A stretch of DNA of 64,000 nt from Paenibacillaceae bacterium GAS479 (GTDB taxonomy: Bacteria > Bacillota > Bacilli > Paenibacillales > Paenibacillaceae): positions 2,993,501-3,057,500 of the forward strand of contig LT629764.1 of assembly GCA_900105225.1 (NCBI GenBank). Reading direction: 5' to 3'. The notes below the pieces were generated by a model, which saw nothing but the letters and a program-made list of their open reading frames with translations, was not told the origin of the DNA and ran no database searches. This document shows positions 22,338 to 63,575 of the stretch, piece after piece; the first letter of the stretch is position 1, and every line of letters starts with the position of its first letter. The translations under genes and the position numbers were made by a program.

Positions 22338-23318
22338 ATGTATGAAATTTTGATCAGCGTCATTGCCTGTTACGGAACGGCAGCGGTAGTGGTTCATCTA
22401 GCCAAGCGTTCAACAGCTCGCAAAGCTCAGGCAGAAAGTCATTATATTCTCATGACCCAGGATGACGAATCGCAGCTGGAGCATTGCATCCGCTCGTTGC
22501 AGGCGCATTCACGACGCTCGGGCAAGTCGATGAGAATTACGATATGGGATCAAGGCTCCAAGGATGATACGGTATTGATTGCCCGCTACTGCGGCAACGG
22601 AGTTTCATGGGTCAGGGAACCGTCGGAGCTTCGCTCGCCGCAGGAAACGGTTATTACAGCGGGAGTGGAGCCGGAGCCGACGGCAGCGAAAGGGAGACTG
22701 GATTCGTTGTCAGCGGAAGGGGAGCTGGAGTCTACGGCAGTGAAAGGGAAGTTGGACTCGGTGTCTGTGGAAGGGAAGCGGGAGTCGACGGTAGTGAAGG
22801 GGAAGTTGGAGTCGGTGTCAGCGGAAGGGAAGCGGGATTCGGTACCAGCGGAAAGCTCATTTGAGCGGGAGTCAATATTAGCGGAAAGCTCATTTGAACG
22901 AGAGTCTCTGCATGATTTTGATGTAAGGGAGTTCGGAATATCGGGAGTGGGGCTGCCCGTAACGAAGCTGGACGATAGTGAGCGGGAGTTAATAGAAAGA
23001 AGTAGCGAGGGTGTTGAGCCGCTGGAGTCTACACCACAACCTCGGGGTGAGACGGAAGCTGGCCCTGATGCCCTTGGAGATACTCAAGGCCATGGAGCGG
23101 CAGATGGAAGTCGAATTGTCACCAGTCATGGTGGTACTCCACTGAGGTCAGGTAAGGTGCTCTCTTCGGAAGGTAAGGAAAAGATCCTTTGGTCCCTTCG
23201 TTTCTACGGAATAATAAGCGAGAGTGATCAGCCAGTTATGATCGATCTAAAGAATATAGAGGATTTGAACAAACTTCCTTTTCGAGCTAATCAGGAGGTT
23301 AAGGGCTACGGGCGCTGA
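22338..23318 (+). CDS. Glycosyltransferase-like N-terminus with repeat-rich tail, function unknown
   Basis: The ATG at 22338 is seven bases after GGAGGAGG. The 326 residues start with a membrane segment (YEILISVIACYGTAAVVVHL). A short alpha/beta region follows that resembles the front of a GT2 glycosyltransferase (ESHYILMTQDDESQLEHCIRSL, ITIWDQGSKDDT), but the rest of such a domain is missing. From residue 118 three 18-residue repeats (KGRLDSLSAEGELESTAV and relatives, 54 bp each, 22689-22850) and two copies of ESSFERES follow. The C-terminal 150 residues are acidic and low in complexity except for a short end segment (KILWSLRFYGIISESDQPVMI). It sits where other Bacillales carry yviA/comFA. 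It may be a decayed or rapidly evolving glycosyltransferase-like gene. Confidence 0.6.
   Translation: MYEILISVIACYGTAAVVVHLAKRSTARKAQAESHYILMTQDDESQLEHCIRSLQAHSRRSGKSMRITIWDQGSKDDTVLIARYCGNGVSWVREPSELRSPQETVITAGVEPEPTAAKGRLDSLSAEGELESTAVKGKLDSVSVEGKRESTVVKGKLESVSAEGKRDSVPAESSFERESILAESSFERESLHDFDVREFGISGVGLPVTKLDDSERELIERSSEGVEPLESTPQPRGETEAGPDALGDTQGHGAADGSRIVTSHGGTPLRSGKVLSSEGKEKILWSLRFYGIISESDQPVMIDLKNIEDLNKLPFRANQEVKGYGR
22689..22915 (+). repeat. Three 54-bp tandem repeats plus a short duplicated segment
   Basis: In-frame copies encode KGRLDSLSAEGELESTAV, KGKLDSVSVEGKRESTVV and KGKLESVSAEGKRDSVPA, followed by ESSFERES twice. Lengths are multiples of three, so the reading frame is kept. 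Confidence 0.75.
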
Positions 23319-57133: not shown

Positions 57134-57799
57134 ATGCAACTTCTAGCCATCGTTACAATGTTAATCGATCACGTTGGGCTGATGTTTTTCCCCGATTCGC
57201 AAGTATGGAGAATGATTGGCCGAATTTCCTTTCCCATCTACGCCTATTTAATTACGGTTGGGTATCGTATGACCTCATCCCAACCTAAATATCTGTTGCG
57301 CCTGGCGGTACTAGCGTTGTTGACACAGCTCCCGTACATACTGGCATTCGATACAACGGGTTACAATAATATCTTTACCCTGCTCGTCTCGGTTCTCGTG
57401 TTATATGGGATTGACTGGTTATTGGCAGGGAAAATGCCTCGGATTGCGGCTTGGCTCATTGTTGTACCGCTTGTTTTGTTTGCCTTTGTTGTCATGACTG
57501 AACTGCCATTCGACTACAATGGATACGGTCTGTTGCTGATTCTCATCTATCGTTACTCACAGCGTGGTTGGACCGTTCTGCTGCATCTGCTGCTCAACGT
57601 TATGTATTTGGTGTTGCTCGGACCGAGTTGGGGACTTCAGCTGTATAGCATTGTTTCGACTATACTGCTCGTGTACGGCGCAGAGTTGCGTGATGAGCTG
57701 AACAAGCTACGAGTTCCGCGCTGGTTATGGCGCTCATTCTATCCGGCGCATTTGGGGGCTCTCGCCGCTGTGGAATTCCTGTTGGCCTCGGCAAGGTAG
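57134..57799 (+). CDS. TraX family membrane protein
   Basis: The ATG at 57134 is six bases after AAGGAGG; 221 residues with about eight hydrophobic helices. The N-terminus MQLLAIVTMLIDHVGLMFFP and RMIGRISFPIYAYLITVGYR are the TraX hallmarks. TraX acetylates F-pilin in enterics, but chromosomal Firmicute members have no known pilin partner; an acyltransferase acting on an envelope component is plausible. It is followed by a very strong terminator. Confidence 0.88.
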   Translation: MQLLAIVTMLIDHVGLMFFPDSQVWRMIGRISFPIYAYLITVGYRMTSSQPKYLLRLAVLALLTQLPYILAFDTTGYNNIFTLLVSVLVLYGIDWLLAGKMPRIAAWLIVVPLVLFAFVVMTELPFDYNGYGLLLILIYRYSQRGWTVLLHLLLNVMYLVLLGPSWGLQLYSIVSTILLVYGAELRDELNKLRVPRWLWRSFYPAHLGALAAVEFLLASAR

Positions 57800-57846
57800 A
57801 GAAGGGTTAGTTGTCATATCGGGTATTCCGATACTGATATAATTGC

Positions 57847-57893
57847 AAGGCCCGCCCGGGTCCCATTGATGGGACACGGGCGGGCCTTCTCGT
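57847..57893 (+). terminator. Very long intrinsic terminator after the TraX gene
   Basis: AAGGCCCGCCCG (57847-57858) pairs perfectly with CGGGCGGGCCTT (57877-57888), with an inner GTCCCAT/ATGGGAC stem. The T tract is only TTCTCGTTTT. The near-symmetry lets it act on both strands. Confidence 0.85.
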
Positions 57894-58015
57894 TTTGTAA
57901 GGCATAAGTTTTCTGTACAAGGGAGGCAATTCGAGGCCGTATTGTTTGTCATACTATTTAGCTCAACGAGAGAACAAGAGAGTTGGAAGAGGAGGCAACA
58001 TGAGCCGACCGTCCC

Positions 58016-58680
58016 GTGAAGCTTGAGTTGAAGCTTTCAAGTAGCTTTTGTTACTTGGTGCGGGCCGTGGAGCTTGAGTTGAAGCATTCAAGTAGCTTTT
58101 GTTACTTGGTGCGGGCCGTGAAGCTTGAGTTGGAGCTCTCAAGTAACTTTTGTTACTTGGTGAGGGCAGTGTAGCTCGAGTTGAAGCTTTCAAGTAGCTT
58201 TTGTTACTTGGTGCGGGCCGTGGAGCTTGAGTTGAAGCATTCAAGTAGCTTTTGTTACTTGGTGCGGGCCGTGAAGCTTGAGTTGGAGCTCTCAAGTAAC
58301 TTTTGTTACTTGGTGAGGGCAGTGTAGCTCGAGTTGGAGCGCTCAAGTAGCTTTTGTTACTTGGTGCGGGCCGTGAAGCTTGAGTTGAAGCTCTCAAGTA
58401 ACTTTTGTTACTTGGTGCGGAGCGTGAAGCTCTAGTTGGAGCGCTCAAGTAGCTTTAGCTACTTGGTGCGGAGTGTGGAGCTCTAGTTGGAGCGCTCAAG
58501 TAACTTTTGTTACTTGGTGAGGGCCGTGGAGCTTGAGTTGAAGCTTTCAAGTAACTTTTGTTACTTGGTGAGGGCCGTTGAGCTTGAGCTGAAGCTTTCA
58601 AGTAGCTTTTGTTACTTGATTCGGGCCGTGGAGCTTGAGTTGAAGCTTTCAAGTAGCTTTAGCTACTTACTGCGGGCTGC
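58016..58680. repeat. Array of thirteen 51-bp tandem units with conserved hairpins
   Basis: CAAGTA begins at 58038, 58089, 58140, 58191, 58242, 58293, 58344, 58395, 58446, 58497, 58548, 58599 and 58650: thirteen units of exactly 51 bases with no indels. Each unit holds hairpin 1 (CAAGTARC-TTTW-GYTACTTG) and a weaker hairpin 2 (GCTY-NAGTTG-RAGC). Variants at the second loop-proximal pair of hairpin 1 are A-T in five, G-T in six and G-C in two, so + strand pairing holds in all thirteen. Units 1-3 and 4-6 form a nearly identical 153-bp duplication. Minus-strand frames look open because 51 is a multiple of three, but units 9 and 13 create TAA stops. Units are contiguous, so this is not CRISPR. 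Confidence 0.9.
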
Positions 58681-58701
58681 AAAACCCGGGCTCAACCTGT
58701 T

Positions 58702-61140
58702 TCAAGCGCTCATTGAACCAAGCAAGCCCGAGATGTTATCAGGTGGAACTGGCTTGCTGAAGTAATATCCCTGCGCTTCATTGCAATGACGTTGCAGAAG
58801 GTATTGCAGCTGCTCCCCGGTTTCGACGCCCTCGGCGATGACTTTTAGTCCGAGGTTATGCGCCATGTTGATAATGGTGTGCACAAGTGCCTCGTCCTTG
58901 GCATCCTCCATGAGGTTGCGGGTGAAGCTTTGGTCGATTTTGAGGCTGTCGATCGGAAACAACTTCAGGTAACTGAGCGAGGAGTAACCCGTCCCGAAGT
59001 CATCGATCGATAGAAATATACCCATCTCCTTGAGTTTATGCATGATGGTTATTGCATGCACCGAGTTCTGAACGATGCTCTCCGTCAGCTCCAGCTCCAA
59101 ATACTTCGGCTCCAACCCGGTATCATTGAGCGCACGACTAACCACCTCTACAAAGCCGCTCTGTTGAAATTGCCTCGTCGAGATATTGACTGCAATTCGC
59201 ATTGGAGGGAGATTCGCATCTTGCCATTCTTTGTTCTGGCGGCAAGCCTCCCGCAGCACCCATTCTCCGATTGGAATGATAAGTCCAGTCTCCTCAGCCA
59301 ACGGAATGAACTCCGCCGGGGAAATAAGGCCAAGCTGTGGATGCTGCCACCGGAGGAGCGCCTCGACACCGACTACCGTGCCCGAGAGGATGTCCACTTG
59401 TGGCTGATAATGTACGGTGAATTCATTTTTAATGATTCCTTTGCGCAGTCCGATCTCCAGATTCATGCGCCGGCTGACAACCTCGTTCATATCCGATGTA
59501 TAAAACTGATAGTTGTTTTTACCTTGCTCTTTGACCCGATACATCGCGGTATCCGCATTTTTAATCAGAGTATCACGATTGTTGCCATCATTCGGGTACA
59601 GGCTCAAGCCGATCGAAGGCGTGACGAACATTTCTTGTCCACCAACAAGCACCGACTGACTGAATGTTTGCAAAATCTTCTGCGCTTTCCGCGTCATGTC
59701 CTCTTGAGACGTGCCTGGCAACAGTACGATGAATTCATCGCCTCCCTGGCGGGAGACGGTATCCTGTTTATCGACGCATTCGCGTAGCCGAATGGAGACT
59801 TCAACCAGCAGCAGATCGCCCATCGTATGACCGAGCGTGTCGTTGATGTATTTGAAACGATCCAGATCCAAAAACATAATACCGATCATCAGGTCGGACT
59901 CATCCGCTTGATCCATTGCTTCCTTGAGACGATCATGGAGCAGATGGCGGTTGGGCAGGCCGGTTAATGGGTCGAGGTAGATCATCTGATTGATTTTATG
60001 CTCGGCTTTTTTGCGCTCGGTAATATCCCGGATAATGCTGCTGAAAAAGGGATGCCCTTCCTCTTCCCAGCCGGCTAAGGACAGCTCCATCGGAAATTCG
60101 GTGCCGTCCTTGCGCAGGCCGTATAGCTCCAGTCTTCGTCCGGCTCCGGGAGAAAGATGGGGCTCCTGCATGAGGTAGGGATATAGACCGTCGGCATGAA
60201 CCTGCTTGAATCGGTCGGGAATCGTCATGTCGAGCGGCTTGCCAATGGCTTCTTTGTCCGTGTAGCCGAACATTAGTTGGGCACCCCGGTTCCAAGATCG
60301 AATAATTGAATGGCTGTCGGCAAGGATGATGGCGTCGGTGGCGGATTCGATGACGGAGCGGAATTTGCGTTCGGATTCAAGTGATTGAGATTCGAAACGT
60401 CGATTTACATATGTGCTGGTGAACATCATGCCGAGGATGACTAACATGCCAATGCTTATCGCATAAGCGAGAATGGTGTTGCTCAGCGTAGTGTCATCAG
60501 TATGCTGCATGCTATGGCGATTATGGAATGAAGCGGCGGCCATACCGGTATAGTGCATGGTAGAAACTGCGGCGCCCATGATCAGAGCGGCTATTGCTTT
60601 ACGACGCCATAGGCGGGGTTGACCGGCTCTTTTTTTGACGGAATACATTAGGTACAAAGCTGTTAGTGATGCAATAAAGGCAATAAGCGCGGAAAGTCCC
60701 CATAGGAGCGGATTGTAGCGCACAATCGCTTCCATCTGCATGGCCGCCATGCCGATGTAGTGCATCGAGACAATGCCGGTAGCCATTAGAAATGCACTAA
60801 GAATAGCTCGGGGGCGCTTCAATTCGGGACGGCTGATGATGTGCAAGGCCAGGAAGGAGGCGGAAATTGCCGGAATGATCGACACTAATACGATCCAAGT
60901 ATTGTAGGTTACATGGATTGGCATGCGGAAGGCGAGCATAGCGATGAAATGCATCGACCAGATGCCCATACCCATTGATAGCGCGCCGCAGGCTATCCAC
61001 ATATTTCGTGTTTTGCCTCTCGACTTGTGAATATGTATGCCAAGGTCCAGCGTGGAGTAAGAGGCAAGAATGGGGATAAGTAGCGACAATAACACGAGAA
61101 AAATATTGTAAGAGCCGTCAACAGGCTGGTGATTCATCAT
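58702..61140 (-). CDS. Membrane c-di-GMP protein, MHYT-PAS-GGDEF-EAL
   Basis: On the minus strand AAGGAG precedes ATG-ATG-AAT-CAC, so the start is 61140 (812 residues), not the ATG at 61173. Seven or so membrane helices form an MHYT sensor with three motifs (MHFIAM, MHYIGM, MHYTGM), thought to sense a diatomic gas through copper. A PAS domain follows (about 260-385), then GGDEF (SRQGGDEFIVLL; cyclase motif intact) and EAL (GVEALLRWQHP, DDFGTGYSSLSYLK; phosphodiesterase motif intact). Both catalytic signatures look competent, so it could make or degrade c-di-GMP. No RxxD inhibitory site is evident five residues before GGDEF. Its 3' end abuts the 51-bp array. Confidence 0.95.
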   Translation of the reverse strand: MMNHQPVDGSYNIFLVLLSLLIPILASYSTLDLGIHIHKSRGKTRNMWIACGALSMGMGIWSMHFIAMLAFRMPIHVTYNTWIVLVSIIPAISASFLALHIISRPELKRPRAILSAFLMATGIVSMHYIGMAAMQMEAIVRYNPLLWGLSALIAFIASLTALYLMYSVKKRAGQPRLWRRKAIAALIMGAAVSTMHYTGMAAASFHNRHSMQHTDDTTLSNTILAYAISIGMLVILGMMFTSTYVNRRFESQSLESERKFRSVIESATDAIILADSHSIIRSWNRGAQLMFGYTDKEAIGKPLDMTIPDRFKQVHADGLYPYLMQEPHLSPGAGRRLELYGLRKDGTEFPMELSLAGWEEEGHPFFSSIIRDITERKKAEHKINQMIYLDPLTGLPNRHLLHDRLKEAMDQADESDLMIGIMFLDLDRFKYINDTLGHTMGDLLLVEVSIRLRECVDKQDTVSRQGGDEFIVLLPGTSQEDMTRKAQKILQTFSQSVLVGGQEMFVTPSIGLSLYPNDGNNRDTLIKNADTAMYRVKEQGKNNYQFYTSDMNEVVSRRMNLEIGLRKGIIKNEFTVHYQPQVDILSGTVVGVEALLRWQHPQLGLISPAEFIPLAEETGLIIPIGEWVLREACRQNKEWQDANLPPMRIAVNISTRQFQQSGFVEVVSRALNDTGLEPKYLELELTESIVQNSVHAITIMHKLKEMGIFLSIDDFGTGYSSLSYLKLFPIDSLKIDQSFTRNLMEDAKDEALVHTIINMAHNLGLKVIAEGVETGEQLQYLLQRHCNEAQGYYFSKPVPPDNISGLLGSMSA

Positions 61141-61407
61141 AGTTGCTTCTCCTTCAAATGAGTCTTTATTCATTATAACGGCATAACAACTAGGTCTTTT
61201 TACCCTGTAAAAATGTTTATTTATATGGATTCATCTTCCAATGGCTGGGGTAGGAGTGGATTTACCTGCCTTGATGTTCGAAGCCTGTGGAAGTGGAGTA
61301 GGGGAAAGCAGCGCTAAGCGGCGGCAGTTGCGGCGGTGGAGCAAGTCGAAGCTTATACTGTGCTACGGCAGCTGGAAGCTCTACAAGGCGATTAATAAGC
61401 TTGAAAA

Positions 61408-61586: not shown

Positions 61587-63575
61587 CTAGTCAAGCAGGC
61601 GGATGCCATCTTCCAGCAGGGGCTGTTCGCCAAATGGCGAGAATAGATCGCTCATCGCATCGCGCTCCTGACCGTGGATGTCTCCGCTGTTTGGTGACGG
61701 CTGTGGTACTGCGCTGCTTCCGGCTGGCCCGGCTTCTTCCGCGCCATGCGGATATGCGTCCGGCCCAGGCCCAGGGGCAGGCGATGATGAGAAGGGGGCG
61801 GATGCGGGACCTTCCATAATAATGGAAGGCTTCGGTTTGTACGTATCGCGGGAGATGCGCGTCCGGGATTCCTCTCTGCCGTTCACGTAACGGATTCGGT
61901 ATGTTTCAACCACATATCCGGTACGGCCTTGATTCAGCACAATCTGCTGTCCTGGCGCTAATCCTGAGCTGCGACGCAATTGAATGGGTGCCTGTAGCGT
62001 ACGGACGGTGCGAGAAACGATGCTGTAACGGACCTCTTTGGGCATCGTGCCGAATAATTTGATCGTGAGCTGTCCATTCCCTGTGTAGGTGCGGATGAGT
62101 AGATGTTTGCCGCTCGTATTGCGGAATCGAAAGTTGATAGATCCTTCTGCGAACGTTGCGTCCTGGCCTTTGGGCAAATAAGAAACCGGCAGGGAGTGGT
62201 TGCGCCGCTCCACGATTTCGAGGCCAGCCCGCAGGGCCACATTGTACAGCGTACTCGACACCTGACAGATGCCGCCGCCGATGCCGCGAGTGAACTGGCC
62301 GTTCAGGATGACCGGAGCTTCCCGGTAGCCGGTTTCGCGCTCTGTGATGCGGATTATTTCTCCATAGTCAAAAACTTCTCCCGGCTTCATCATCCAGCCG
62401 TTCAGCGTGCGTGCAGTCTCCGATACATTAAAGGCCCTGCCCTGTGAACTGGTCCGGTAATCGGTCGAGAAGGTGGCAATCAGCCGCTCGATGCCCTCCT
62501 CTTTCAGCGAAGCCAGCGTCACCTTCGGGGGGACGGCGCGGAACTGCAGCGCCTCCTGCCTGCTGGTCTCCAGGCCGAGAGTGGAGAGCAATTTGGAGCC
62601 GCTCAAGCTGATAAGCTGGGCGGATGATGGCTCAGCGGAGCTTCCAGAGCTGCGTGAGTTGCCTGGCTTTACGTAGGCGGGATGGGGCACGCTTCTTTGT
62701 CCTGTGGTCCTTGAACCGAGCTTTCCGGAAGCGGGATTGGGTTCGCTTCCTTGTCTTGTGATCTCGGAATCGGGCTTTTCGGAAGCAGTCGCTCCGATTT
62801 CCATACGTAAGGCTTCATTTTCGGACAAGGTCGTTGTTGTCGTGACAGCATCGGCAGCGCCTAGCCCCTTGGCAGCCCAATGACGAATGCTTTCGTACTG
62901 GCGGTCGAGATCAAGATGAAGCACGTTGCGTCCGGGAGTGTAGACGACTTGGTCATAGGGTGTGATTATCCGGACGGCATCCACCGGTTTGCGCTCATCG
63001 TAGAAGCCCCATTCAGAGCGGATCGTGGCATCAAACGCCGCCCGGTCGGACCGCAGTTTTGCAGGCAGCTGTTTGTCCCATTTCCAGCGATATTTAGCAC
63101 TCTCTATAACGGAACCGGTACCGAGACGGGCTACGGCTGCTTTTGCTTCCTCTAGGTCAATGCGCAGCCCAAGCTGGGCAAGCGTCCAGGCTGCGCTGCG
63201 CTCGGCTTGAACAGGGAGCAAGGGAACTCCTCCCCCGGAATACGTCTTGCTTGATTTGGAATTCGGCTCAGCACTTCCGGTTGCTGCTTGAGCTGCTGTT
63301 TCATTCACTCCGGAAGCTACAGGCTTGTCCTTGCTGGAAGAGGCGGACGGGGTCCCGTCCGCCAGAGTAACGATGCGGCTATCCAGCGCTAACTGGTAAG
63401 ACTCCAACAACTGCAGCGCCTCCGCTTGGCGGAGGCCGCCGAGCGGCAGTCCCGCCGCATTGGTGCCGGAGGGCACCTTTGTTTTGGAGCCATAGATCCA
63501 GAGCATGCCCCATAAAATAGTCGCCACCAGCAAAAGGCCAAGAACGACAATGAGCAGCAAATGCAGCCTTTTCAC
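61587..63575 (-). CDS. VanW family protein with G5 domain
   Basis: On the minus strand GGGAGG precedes a GTG at 63575 (662 residues, KRLHLLLIVVLGLLLVATILWGMLWIY membrane anchor); an ATG at 63590 overlaps the ribosome site. An N-terminal extracellular domain (about 35-230) is broken by Ser/Gly-rich low-complexity inserts (about 60-105 and 250-310, with imperfect repeats such as SEITRQGSEPNPASGKLGS). The VanW domain follows (about 375-525; LNGWMMKPGEVFDYGEI, GGGICQVSSTLYNVALRAGLEIVERRNHS), then a G5 domain (about 525-585; VVETYRIRYVNGREESRTRIS) and a Pro/Gly-rich tail. VanW/YoaR-like proteins are exported and may act on the wall or on sporulation; exact function unknown. Confidence 0.9.
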   Translation of the reverse strand: MKRLHLLLIVVLGLLLVATILWGMLWIYGSKTKVPSGTNAAGLPLGGLRQAEALQLLESYQLALDSRIVTLADGTPSASSSKDKPVASGVNETAAQAATGSAEPNSKSSKTYSGGGVPLLPVQAERSAAWTLAQLGLRIDLEEAKAAVARLGTGSVIESAKYRWKWDKQLPAKLRSDRAAFDATIRSEWGFYDERKPVDAVRIITPYDQVVYTPGRNVLHLDLDRQYESIRHWAAKGLGAADAVTTTTTLSENEALRMEIGATASEKPDSEITRQGSEPNPASGKLGSRTTGQRSVPHPAYVKPGNSRSSGSSAEPSSAQLISLSGSKLLSTLGLETSRQEALQFRAVPPKVTLASLKEEGIERLIATFSTDYRTSSQGRAFNVSETARTLNGWMMKPGEVFDYGEIIRITERETGYREAPVILNGQFTRGIGGGICQVSSTLYNVALRAGLEIVERRNHSLPVSYLPKGQDATFAEGSINFRFRNTSGKHLLIRTYTGNGQLTIKLFGTMPKEVRYSIVSRTVRTLQAPIQLRRSSGLAPGQQIVLNQGRTGYVVETYRIRYVNGREESRTRISRDTYKPKPSIIMEGPASAPFSSSPAPGPGPDAYPHGAEEAGPAGSSAVPQPSPNSGDIHGQERDAMSDLFSPFGEQPLLEDGIRLLD

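Follow-up and report, generated by a model that had tools for sequence, protein, structure and literature searches.

What kind of element is a tandem array of thirteen hairpin units lying between two genes of Paenibacillaceae bacterium GAS479, and what keeps its palindromes? The array sits in a window of 64,000 nucleotides (the whole stretch of DNA that was analysed, counted from its first letter). The original prediction, made from the letters of this window, took the base changes in the stems to be compensatory and the array to be under structural constraint. The features that we refer to throughout are the following.

58014..58677, strand not applicable: tandem array of 13 units of 51 bp (TRF score 943, 0% indels)
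58038..58057, + strand: first 20-bp interrupted palindrome, CAAGTAGC-TTTT-GTTACTTG, with half-site CAAGTARY in both arms; it recurs every 51 bp up to the 13th core
58650..58669, + strand: 13th core, CAAGTAGC-TTTA-GCTACTTA, in which the outer pair 1/20 is lost (G to A)
58058..58088, strand not applicable: first 31-bp array-specific spacer, which contains the second hairpin of the original prediction
58038..58343, strand not applicable: 153-bp higher-order duplication, units 1-3 copied as units 4-6
57134..57799, + strand: TraX-family gene, start codon inferred (Pfam TraX, 1e-25), ending 214 bp to the left of the array
58702..61173, - strand: MHYT-PAS-GGDEF-EAL gene (Pfam), converging on the array from the right

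TRF finds 13.0 copies at a period of 51 and a core search finds 13 cores at 51-bp steps, which bears out the thirteen-unit array with an exact period and no indels. A unit consists of an interrupted palindrome of 20 bp, CAAGTARC-TTTW-GYTACTTG, and the 31-bp spacer after it. Recounting the pair formed by core positions 7 and 14 reproduces the earlier tally exactly (A-T in 5 units, G-C in 2, G-T in 6, with + strand pairing intact there in all 13). A comparison of the spacers of units 1 to 6 confirms the 153-bp duplication, since those of units 1 and 2 recur exactly in units 4 and 5 and that of unit 3 recurs in unit 6 with 3 changes; the recent expansion proposed for the array is likewise supported. 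The predicted position between a TraX gene and a c-di-GMP gene agrees with Pfam, the latter being the convergent MHYT-PAS-GGDEF-EAL gene, for which a match is found in 8/8 genus genomes searched. Leftward, beyond the TraX-family gene, lie argF, argG, argH and a GNAT-like gene (GNAT matches below cut-offs). Two other tandem repeats in the window have a 54-bp unit, one at 22657-22841 (3.4 copies) and one at 62665-62786 (2.3 copies), the second inside a gene whose VanW-like match stays under the curated cut-off.

The array was predicted to be non-coding, and this too is supported. Read on the reverse strand, the array contains a stop that leaves frames of 161 and 65 aa, and the 161-aa frame has no Pfam match above the cut-off. 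We reject a protein-coding repeat because many sister arrays, described below, combine units of 51 and 52 bp, so that no frame could run through them. A CRISPR array is also rejected, the spacers being near-copies of one another within an array.

The window array is not a structured RNA standing alone: a search of the same genome for the unit core brings the number of such arrays to at least 31. Matches to the core pattern number 183 in the 5.52-Mb window genome (G000) and 0 for a reversed control, which excludes chance. These arrays hold 3 to 27 units each, with a period of 51 or 52 nearly throughout, and their count is a lower bound, since the G000 stretches examined contain 315/384 exact cores. 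Paenibacillus herberti (G003) has 45 array pieces with 629 units, amounting to 44 arrays: L076 and L096 are one array split by a tile edge, L081 and L095 are maybe a second such pair, and the P. herberti statistics are computed on pieces, not on joined arrays. Arrays of both genomes share the palindrome CAAGTARYNNNNRYTACTTG with array-specific 31-bp spacers, where cores were collected with up to 3 mismatches over the outer 12 positions. P. daejeonensis has one CAAGTA-core array, and six other genus members searched have neither the 20-mer core nor the arrays. Beyond these, a scan of 84,980 species, from which very near genomes were possibly excluded, returns solely a Bacteroides MAG, and we reject this match as a CAAGTA-core array because it is a different AT-rich repeat with a period of 26 bp (L071:2148-2220, with AAGTAATGNAAATTACTT; the period is unrelated). 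Single matches in G221 and G232 are rejected as family members on account of their period of 49, and a phage origin is rejected as well, the two-unit pattern giving 0 stretches in viral contigs.

The two large sets of CAAGTA-core arrays are orthologous, and their counts are non-independent. A matching P. herberti array stretch over at least 800 bp is found for 27/30 G000 array-bearing stretches, identity being 85-97% for the most part and 75-84% in some short pieces; L017, L025 and L027 have none. Across 25 orthologous array pairs (L009 and L037 excluded, as well as L039, a copy of L009) identity is 99.7% in the outer core and 78% (range 42-100%) in the spacer consensus, for which non-orthologous arrays give 54%. 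Whole units come and go at a fixed locus: just 2 of these 25 pairs have equal unit numbers. The G000 contig ends that carry L009 and L039 overlap at 98.4-98.8% identity, probably an untrimmed circular overlap. One contig-end copy of this array counts 27 units and the other 18, a difference that may stem from misassembly or may be genuine heterogeneity.

Two measurements show that core sequence and spacing alike are conserved. Over 66 arrays the within-array diversity comes to 0.015 for the twelve outer positions of the core and 0.173 for the spacers. Where the period changes, it does so by ±1 bp in 39 classes and by at least 2 bp in 5, whereas flanking indels not divisible by three split 65:62 between the same size classes (Fisher 5e-6 against the period changes).

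Is it then pairing or sequence that is conserved? Within the CAAGTA-core family the stem does not covary, and its outer six pairs are fixed as sequence. Not one Watson-Crick swap occurs at these pairs among 984 cores of the two species, and on this ground the reading of compensatory changes as structural constraint finds no support within the family. The 7/14 pair is G-T or A-C in 493/984 cores. Watson-Crick pairs at 7/14 exceed within-array shuffles when all units are taken (73 vs 61, p 0.001) and, with duplicates removed, number 25 vs 20.5 (p 0.11, 8 informative arrays). Arrays that hold both G-T and A-C number 0/31 in G000, which favours the compensatory reading, and 3/44 among the P. herberti array pieces, which counts against it. 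As for the second hairpin, its letters are present as described, but across 31 arrays the spacers are not generally structured and have no clear advantage over shuffled sequence (mean z about -0.2, p 0.07 and 0.10).

These results weigh on the idea of a transcribed structured RNA, a 3'-UTR or non-coding RNA with tandem hairpins, which we consider very unlikely. An RNA element with compensatory stems is rejected within the CAAGTA-core family, given the missing covariation and the unstructured spacers. The predicted fold of 150 nt, at -65 kcal/mol on the + strand versus -34 on the - strand (a pair of values without shuffled control), speaks for an RNA, as does the frequent position of arrays after gene 3' ends. 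Against it, no Rfam match on the arrays reaches the gathering score (weak sub-threshold matches are seen), and a scan of 57700-58800 gives 0 promoter-like sites; weak terminator-like sites there number 3 against 1.6 expected.

The half-sites tell us more about what the core may be. Counting them individually gives, from a total of 1968, CAAGTAGC 673 times, CAAGTAAC 623 times, CAAGTAGT 530 times and CAAGTAAT 7 times, so that the two halves vary largely separately. We note that CAAGTAAT is scarce although CAAGTAAC and CAAGTAGT are common, which may point to a rule of recognition at positions 7-8. Two half-sites that vary separately, combined with leading-strand-biased transitions, are in keeping with the wobble pattern. 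The wobble strand goes with the G-rich strand, at 8:1 against 3:8 in G000 (p 0.01, 11/31 arrays dropped) and 23:4 against 3:9 in G003 (p 0.0005, 5/44 dropped), the dropped arrays being those in which wobble is absent or mixed or skew is weak; a wobble kept to one strand is equally what leading-strand C-to-T changes would give. In G000 the wobble strand follows the chromosome half 19:5 and the flanking tandem genes 9:7, and we reject a sense 3'-UTR on the latter ratio, which also argues against the structured RNA more generally.

A protein-binding array, one of the options first listed for this locus, is supported as a possible reading, as is a replication-linked element. In its most concrete form, the array would offer phased double-stranded sites to a dimeric DNA-binding protein for chromosome organisation or segregation, with CAAGTARY as half-site and one dimer per five helical turns on a single face. 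The separately varying half-sites suit such sites, as does a sequence that is fixed beyond mere pairing, and so does a 51-52 bp period that stays constant across differing cores, as seen below. A symmetric site, however, has no reason to be oriented with replication, the 20-mer is missing from six relatives and close species differ in core, and no single core stands beside a regulator in the stretches examined. We therefore treat phased protein sites as unlikely, though deserving of real weight.

Arrays of similar period with other palindromes are found well outside the CAAGTA-core family. Intergenic arrays of period 50-52 occur in 8/9 further genomes, sampled over 40-240 kb each (the G232 sample has none), and the same sampling yields 17 arrays of period 50-52 against 8 of all other periods of at least 30 bp, a comparison biased by the choice of the G005 stretches, two G001 stretches and some from G284, G003 and G004 at known matches. 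A second family, GAGTTRCGCGG-AAAAA-CCGAGYAACTC with a period of 52, has 45 BLAST matches in G001 and 47 in G005; another palindrome of the class is ATAGTCGG-AAAAA-CCGACTAT. The sub-motif AAAAACCGA repeats at 50-53 bp in 45/394 family genomes and 7/19 genera, and its reversed control does so in 2 genomes. The best-ranked matches among open-licence PMC papers contain no description of these arrays, and this class of ~51-base hairpin repeats in Paenibacillus relatives is apparently both widespread and undescribed.

What the class shares is dyad symmetry, not one sequence. The A5-loop class comprises 28 arrays in 16 genomes, spaced by 51 or 52 in 129/133 single steps, and its arms vary by lineage (ATAGTCGG/CCGACTAT, AATGTCGG/CCGACATT, AATGTAATCG/CGATTACATT). 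An array's own arms pair at 7.9/10 positions, compared to 5.6 for arms taken across genomes; taking one A5-loop array per genome gives a sum of 126, which 0/2000 shuffles reach (95 ± 5). Across lineages one arm changes along with the other, so that the symmetry itself is preserved. Two core families also lie in matching intervals at three loci (L017 with L149 and L148, both flanks; L011 with L215, both flanks; L046 with L144 and L218, one adjacent flank). By our own, uncomputed estimate roughly one such locus would arise by chance, and the result is suggestive only. L094 with L119/L224 is ambiguous, and the pairs L061/L213 and L021/L217 are near each other in different gaps.

Now we consider orientation. 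Arrays of the class mostly point the way the chromosome is copied. In G209 the A-loop strand agrees with the G-rich strand at 26/26 loci (16 plus, 7 minus, 3 plus along the sequence), with skew sign changes at 3.56-3.76 Mb and 6.95-7.2 Mb, within which the loci at 3.70 and 6.98 Mb fall; in G171 it agrees at 17/17 (13 plus, 4 minus; skew change at 4.0-4.4 Mb). Loci of these two genomes were grouped by eye, and two 1 kb apart were counted as one. Agreement is 4/5 in G018 (exception at 7.62 Mb) and 2/3 among the loci listed for G211 (exception at 5.31 Mb), the scored loci in all four genomes being A-loop motif arrays. By chromosome half, 23/25 loci agree in G001, with L224 and L225 as exceptions. 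The trend is weaker in G000, where the A-loop strand gives 20:8 beside the 19:5 of the wobble strand. In the window array the G-rich strand carries the T-loop, contrary to the A-loop trend, though the wobble strand is concordant.

Could this polarity merely reflect the direction of the genes? The A-loop strand matches tandem genes 15:3 in G001 (L133 dropped as the same array as L170) and 35:17 over three partly related sets, so that gene direction is not fully separated from replication, and these ratios are a further point for a structured RNA. Where tandem genes and replication conflict, the array sides with replication in 2/2 cases in G000 and 2/2 in G001 (L229, L169), which goes against an RNA, in 4 cases only. 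Local GC skew was dropped as a proxy in these conflicts because it tracked the gene strand in 18/18 tandem cases of each CAAGTA-core set; chromosome halves or wider skew sampling took its place. Coding DNA lies on the leading strand for 43 to 100% of bases across 21 samples, by which measure the arrays look stricter than genes.

The gaps that hold arrays are intergenic: 26 are convergent, 7 divergent and 55 tandem, against 31:42:112 in a background of other gaps of 100-3000 bp (15 stretch-edge arrays dropped, genes called by a home-made codon score). This count includes the two orthologous CAAGTA-core sets; G000 and the A-loop set alone give convergent:divergent 17:6 (p 0.016). We saw no clean empty site with a target duplication, a near-empty site having been inspected by eye. 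Of two isolated core matches in the stretches examined, L077 falls inside an array and L028 resembles a decayed one.

The preference for convergent gaps (26:7 vs 31:42), the orientation and the variable unit number are all what one would expect of a neutral minisatellite whose wrong-way arrays are deleted by slippage and whose core is kept by hairpin-templated correction. Under such correction the pairs should become perfect, but G-T or A-C makes up half of those at 7/14, and correction alone cannot hold CAAGTA while spacer consensuses diverge by 22%. Orientation-dependent survival of a neutral repeat is, in our judgement, quite unlikely.

How do the arrays compare with known repeats? STAR elements of Staphylococcus, as given in the part of PMC3532100 consulted, are dispersed intergenic repeats, occupy 32-39 loci per S. 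aureus genome with an abundance that is species-specific and unrelated to phylogeny, and have a 14-bp GC-rich direct-repeat core, T(G/A/T)TGTTG(G/T)GGCCC(C/A), most loci having one motif and some up to 7. On that description the likeness lies in a short conserved core, ~50-nt tandem units and the combination of locus-specific spacers with variable unit number at stable loci, which the arrays here display. They differ from the same description in having a 20-27 bp palindromic core, up to 31 units and a period of 51-52 bp, in changing core between lineages, and in being oriented with replication in most loci tested. The STAR core TNTGTTGNGGCCC, searched with up to 2 mismatches, gives 7 matches in the window against 15.3 expected, and 0 in the array.

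BOX, RUP and SPRITE of Streptococcus pneumoniae resemble the arrays in placement. The sections of PMC3049150 consulted describe dispersed hairpin-forming repeats that are, like the arrays here, enriched between convergent genes; 61-63% lie on the leading strand, mirroring coding bias, whereas 49/51 loci are oriented with replication in four genomes here (the G211 loci being those listed). BOX and RUP have, in the same sections, terminal inverted repeats and target duplications, with boxB absent to several copies, and in our arrays we saw neither terminal inverted repeats nor target duplications.

A precedent for such orientation is given by IS200/IS605 elements, which are acted on in the lagging-strand template and whose orientation recapitulates replication (PMC5371812, in the portion consulted); the orientation of the arrays here likewise follows replication, more weakly in G000. 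Unlike the elements of that account, they are tandem arrays, not paired ends, and have no transposase gene in the unit. The Y1 transposase domain (Y1_Tnp, PF01797) is found 0 times in G000, G001, G004, G005, G007 and G284, and elsewhere once in G003, 4 times in G002 and twice in G006. REP/RAYT are single-strand systems, grouped with IS200/IS605, and we reject RAYT/REP mobilisation because G000 is without Y1 transposase. The MIRU of Mycobacterium are minisatellites at many loci with variable copy number, in which they resemble the arrays; MIRU are not known to have a palindromic core, a fixed 51-52 bp period or replication polarity. We therefore place the arrays among dispersed intergenic repeats, outside STAR, BOX (compared by description) and REP.

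Taken with the evidence above, the reading that we tentatively favour, at somewhat short of an even chance, is that the arrays form a dispersed minisatellite, STAR-like and coupled to replication, and that a factor acting in trans recognises the hairpin core, probably on the lagging-strand template. The palindromic core of each ~51-bp unit would fold when single-stranded, for instance on that template, and slippage at the fork could add or remove whole units. We place recognition in trans because the core sequence is conserved, and such recognition would be what keeps it; we place recognition or insertion at the fork or on the lagging-strand template because orientation follows replication. 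From lineage to lineage the genome-wide core differs, with the 51-52 bp period, the dyad symmetry and, where tested, the orientation retained. Several points stand against this replication-coupled minisatellite: no mobilising or binding protein was found, a solely selfish repeat is not expected to retain its core so well after species split, there are loci that break the rule in G001, G018 and G211, the A-loop polarity of the window array is contrary and that of G000 only 20:8, the A-loop strand also matches tandem genes, and no clean empty site with a target duplication was seen.

One might instead suppose that the arrays are polar marks, replication-oriented and helically phased hairpin arrays read at or behind the fork, each mark co-evolving with its reader. 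In such a family-wide chromosomal system the reader might be a translocase, primase or condensin-type factor, and a lineage would exchange the core in every one of its arrays, with the period of 51-52 bp, the symmetry and the orientation unchanged. We hold polar marks to be improbable, if well worth entertaining.

A bacterial chromosome is expected to shed repeats that have no function. This class nonetheless persists among relatives of Paenibacillus; its period is kept, its palindrome is conserved and, in the best genomes, its orientation agrees completely with the direction of replication. It offers a natural and testable case of how dispersed satellites in bacteria are maintained, spread and re-sequenced, and the same tests may suit STAR-like repeats, for which the consulted part of the 2012 paper (PMC3532100) describes no function.

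Some arrays of the wider class add further variety. At L213:3708-4560 two A-loop core types are adjacent, and the period of 51-52 bp runs by eye without visible change. Arrays of 52-bp period with the palindromes CCAAGGCANNNNNNTGCCTTGG and AAYCCTGCANNNNTGCAGGRTT occur at L115:13579-13863 (G001) and L125:8942-9144 (G002). Finally, L152:14189-16173 (G007, 52 bp) and L162:3210-3783 (G006, 51 bp) both have arms with AATAAG ... CTTAT, possibly a third shared core type.
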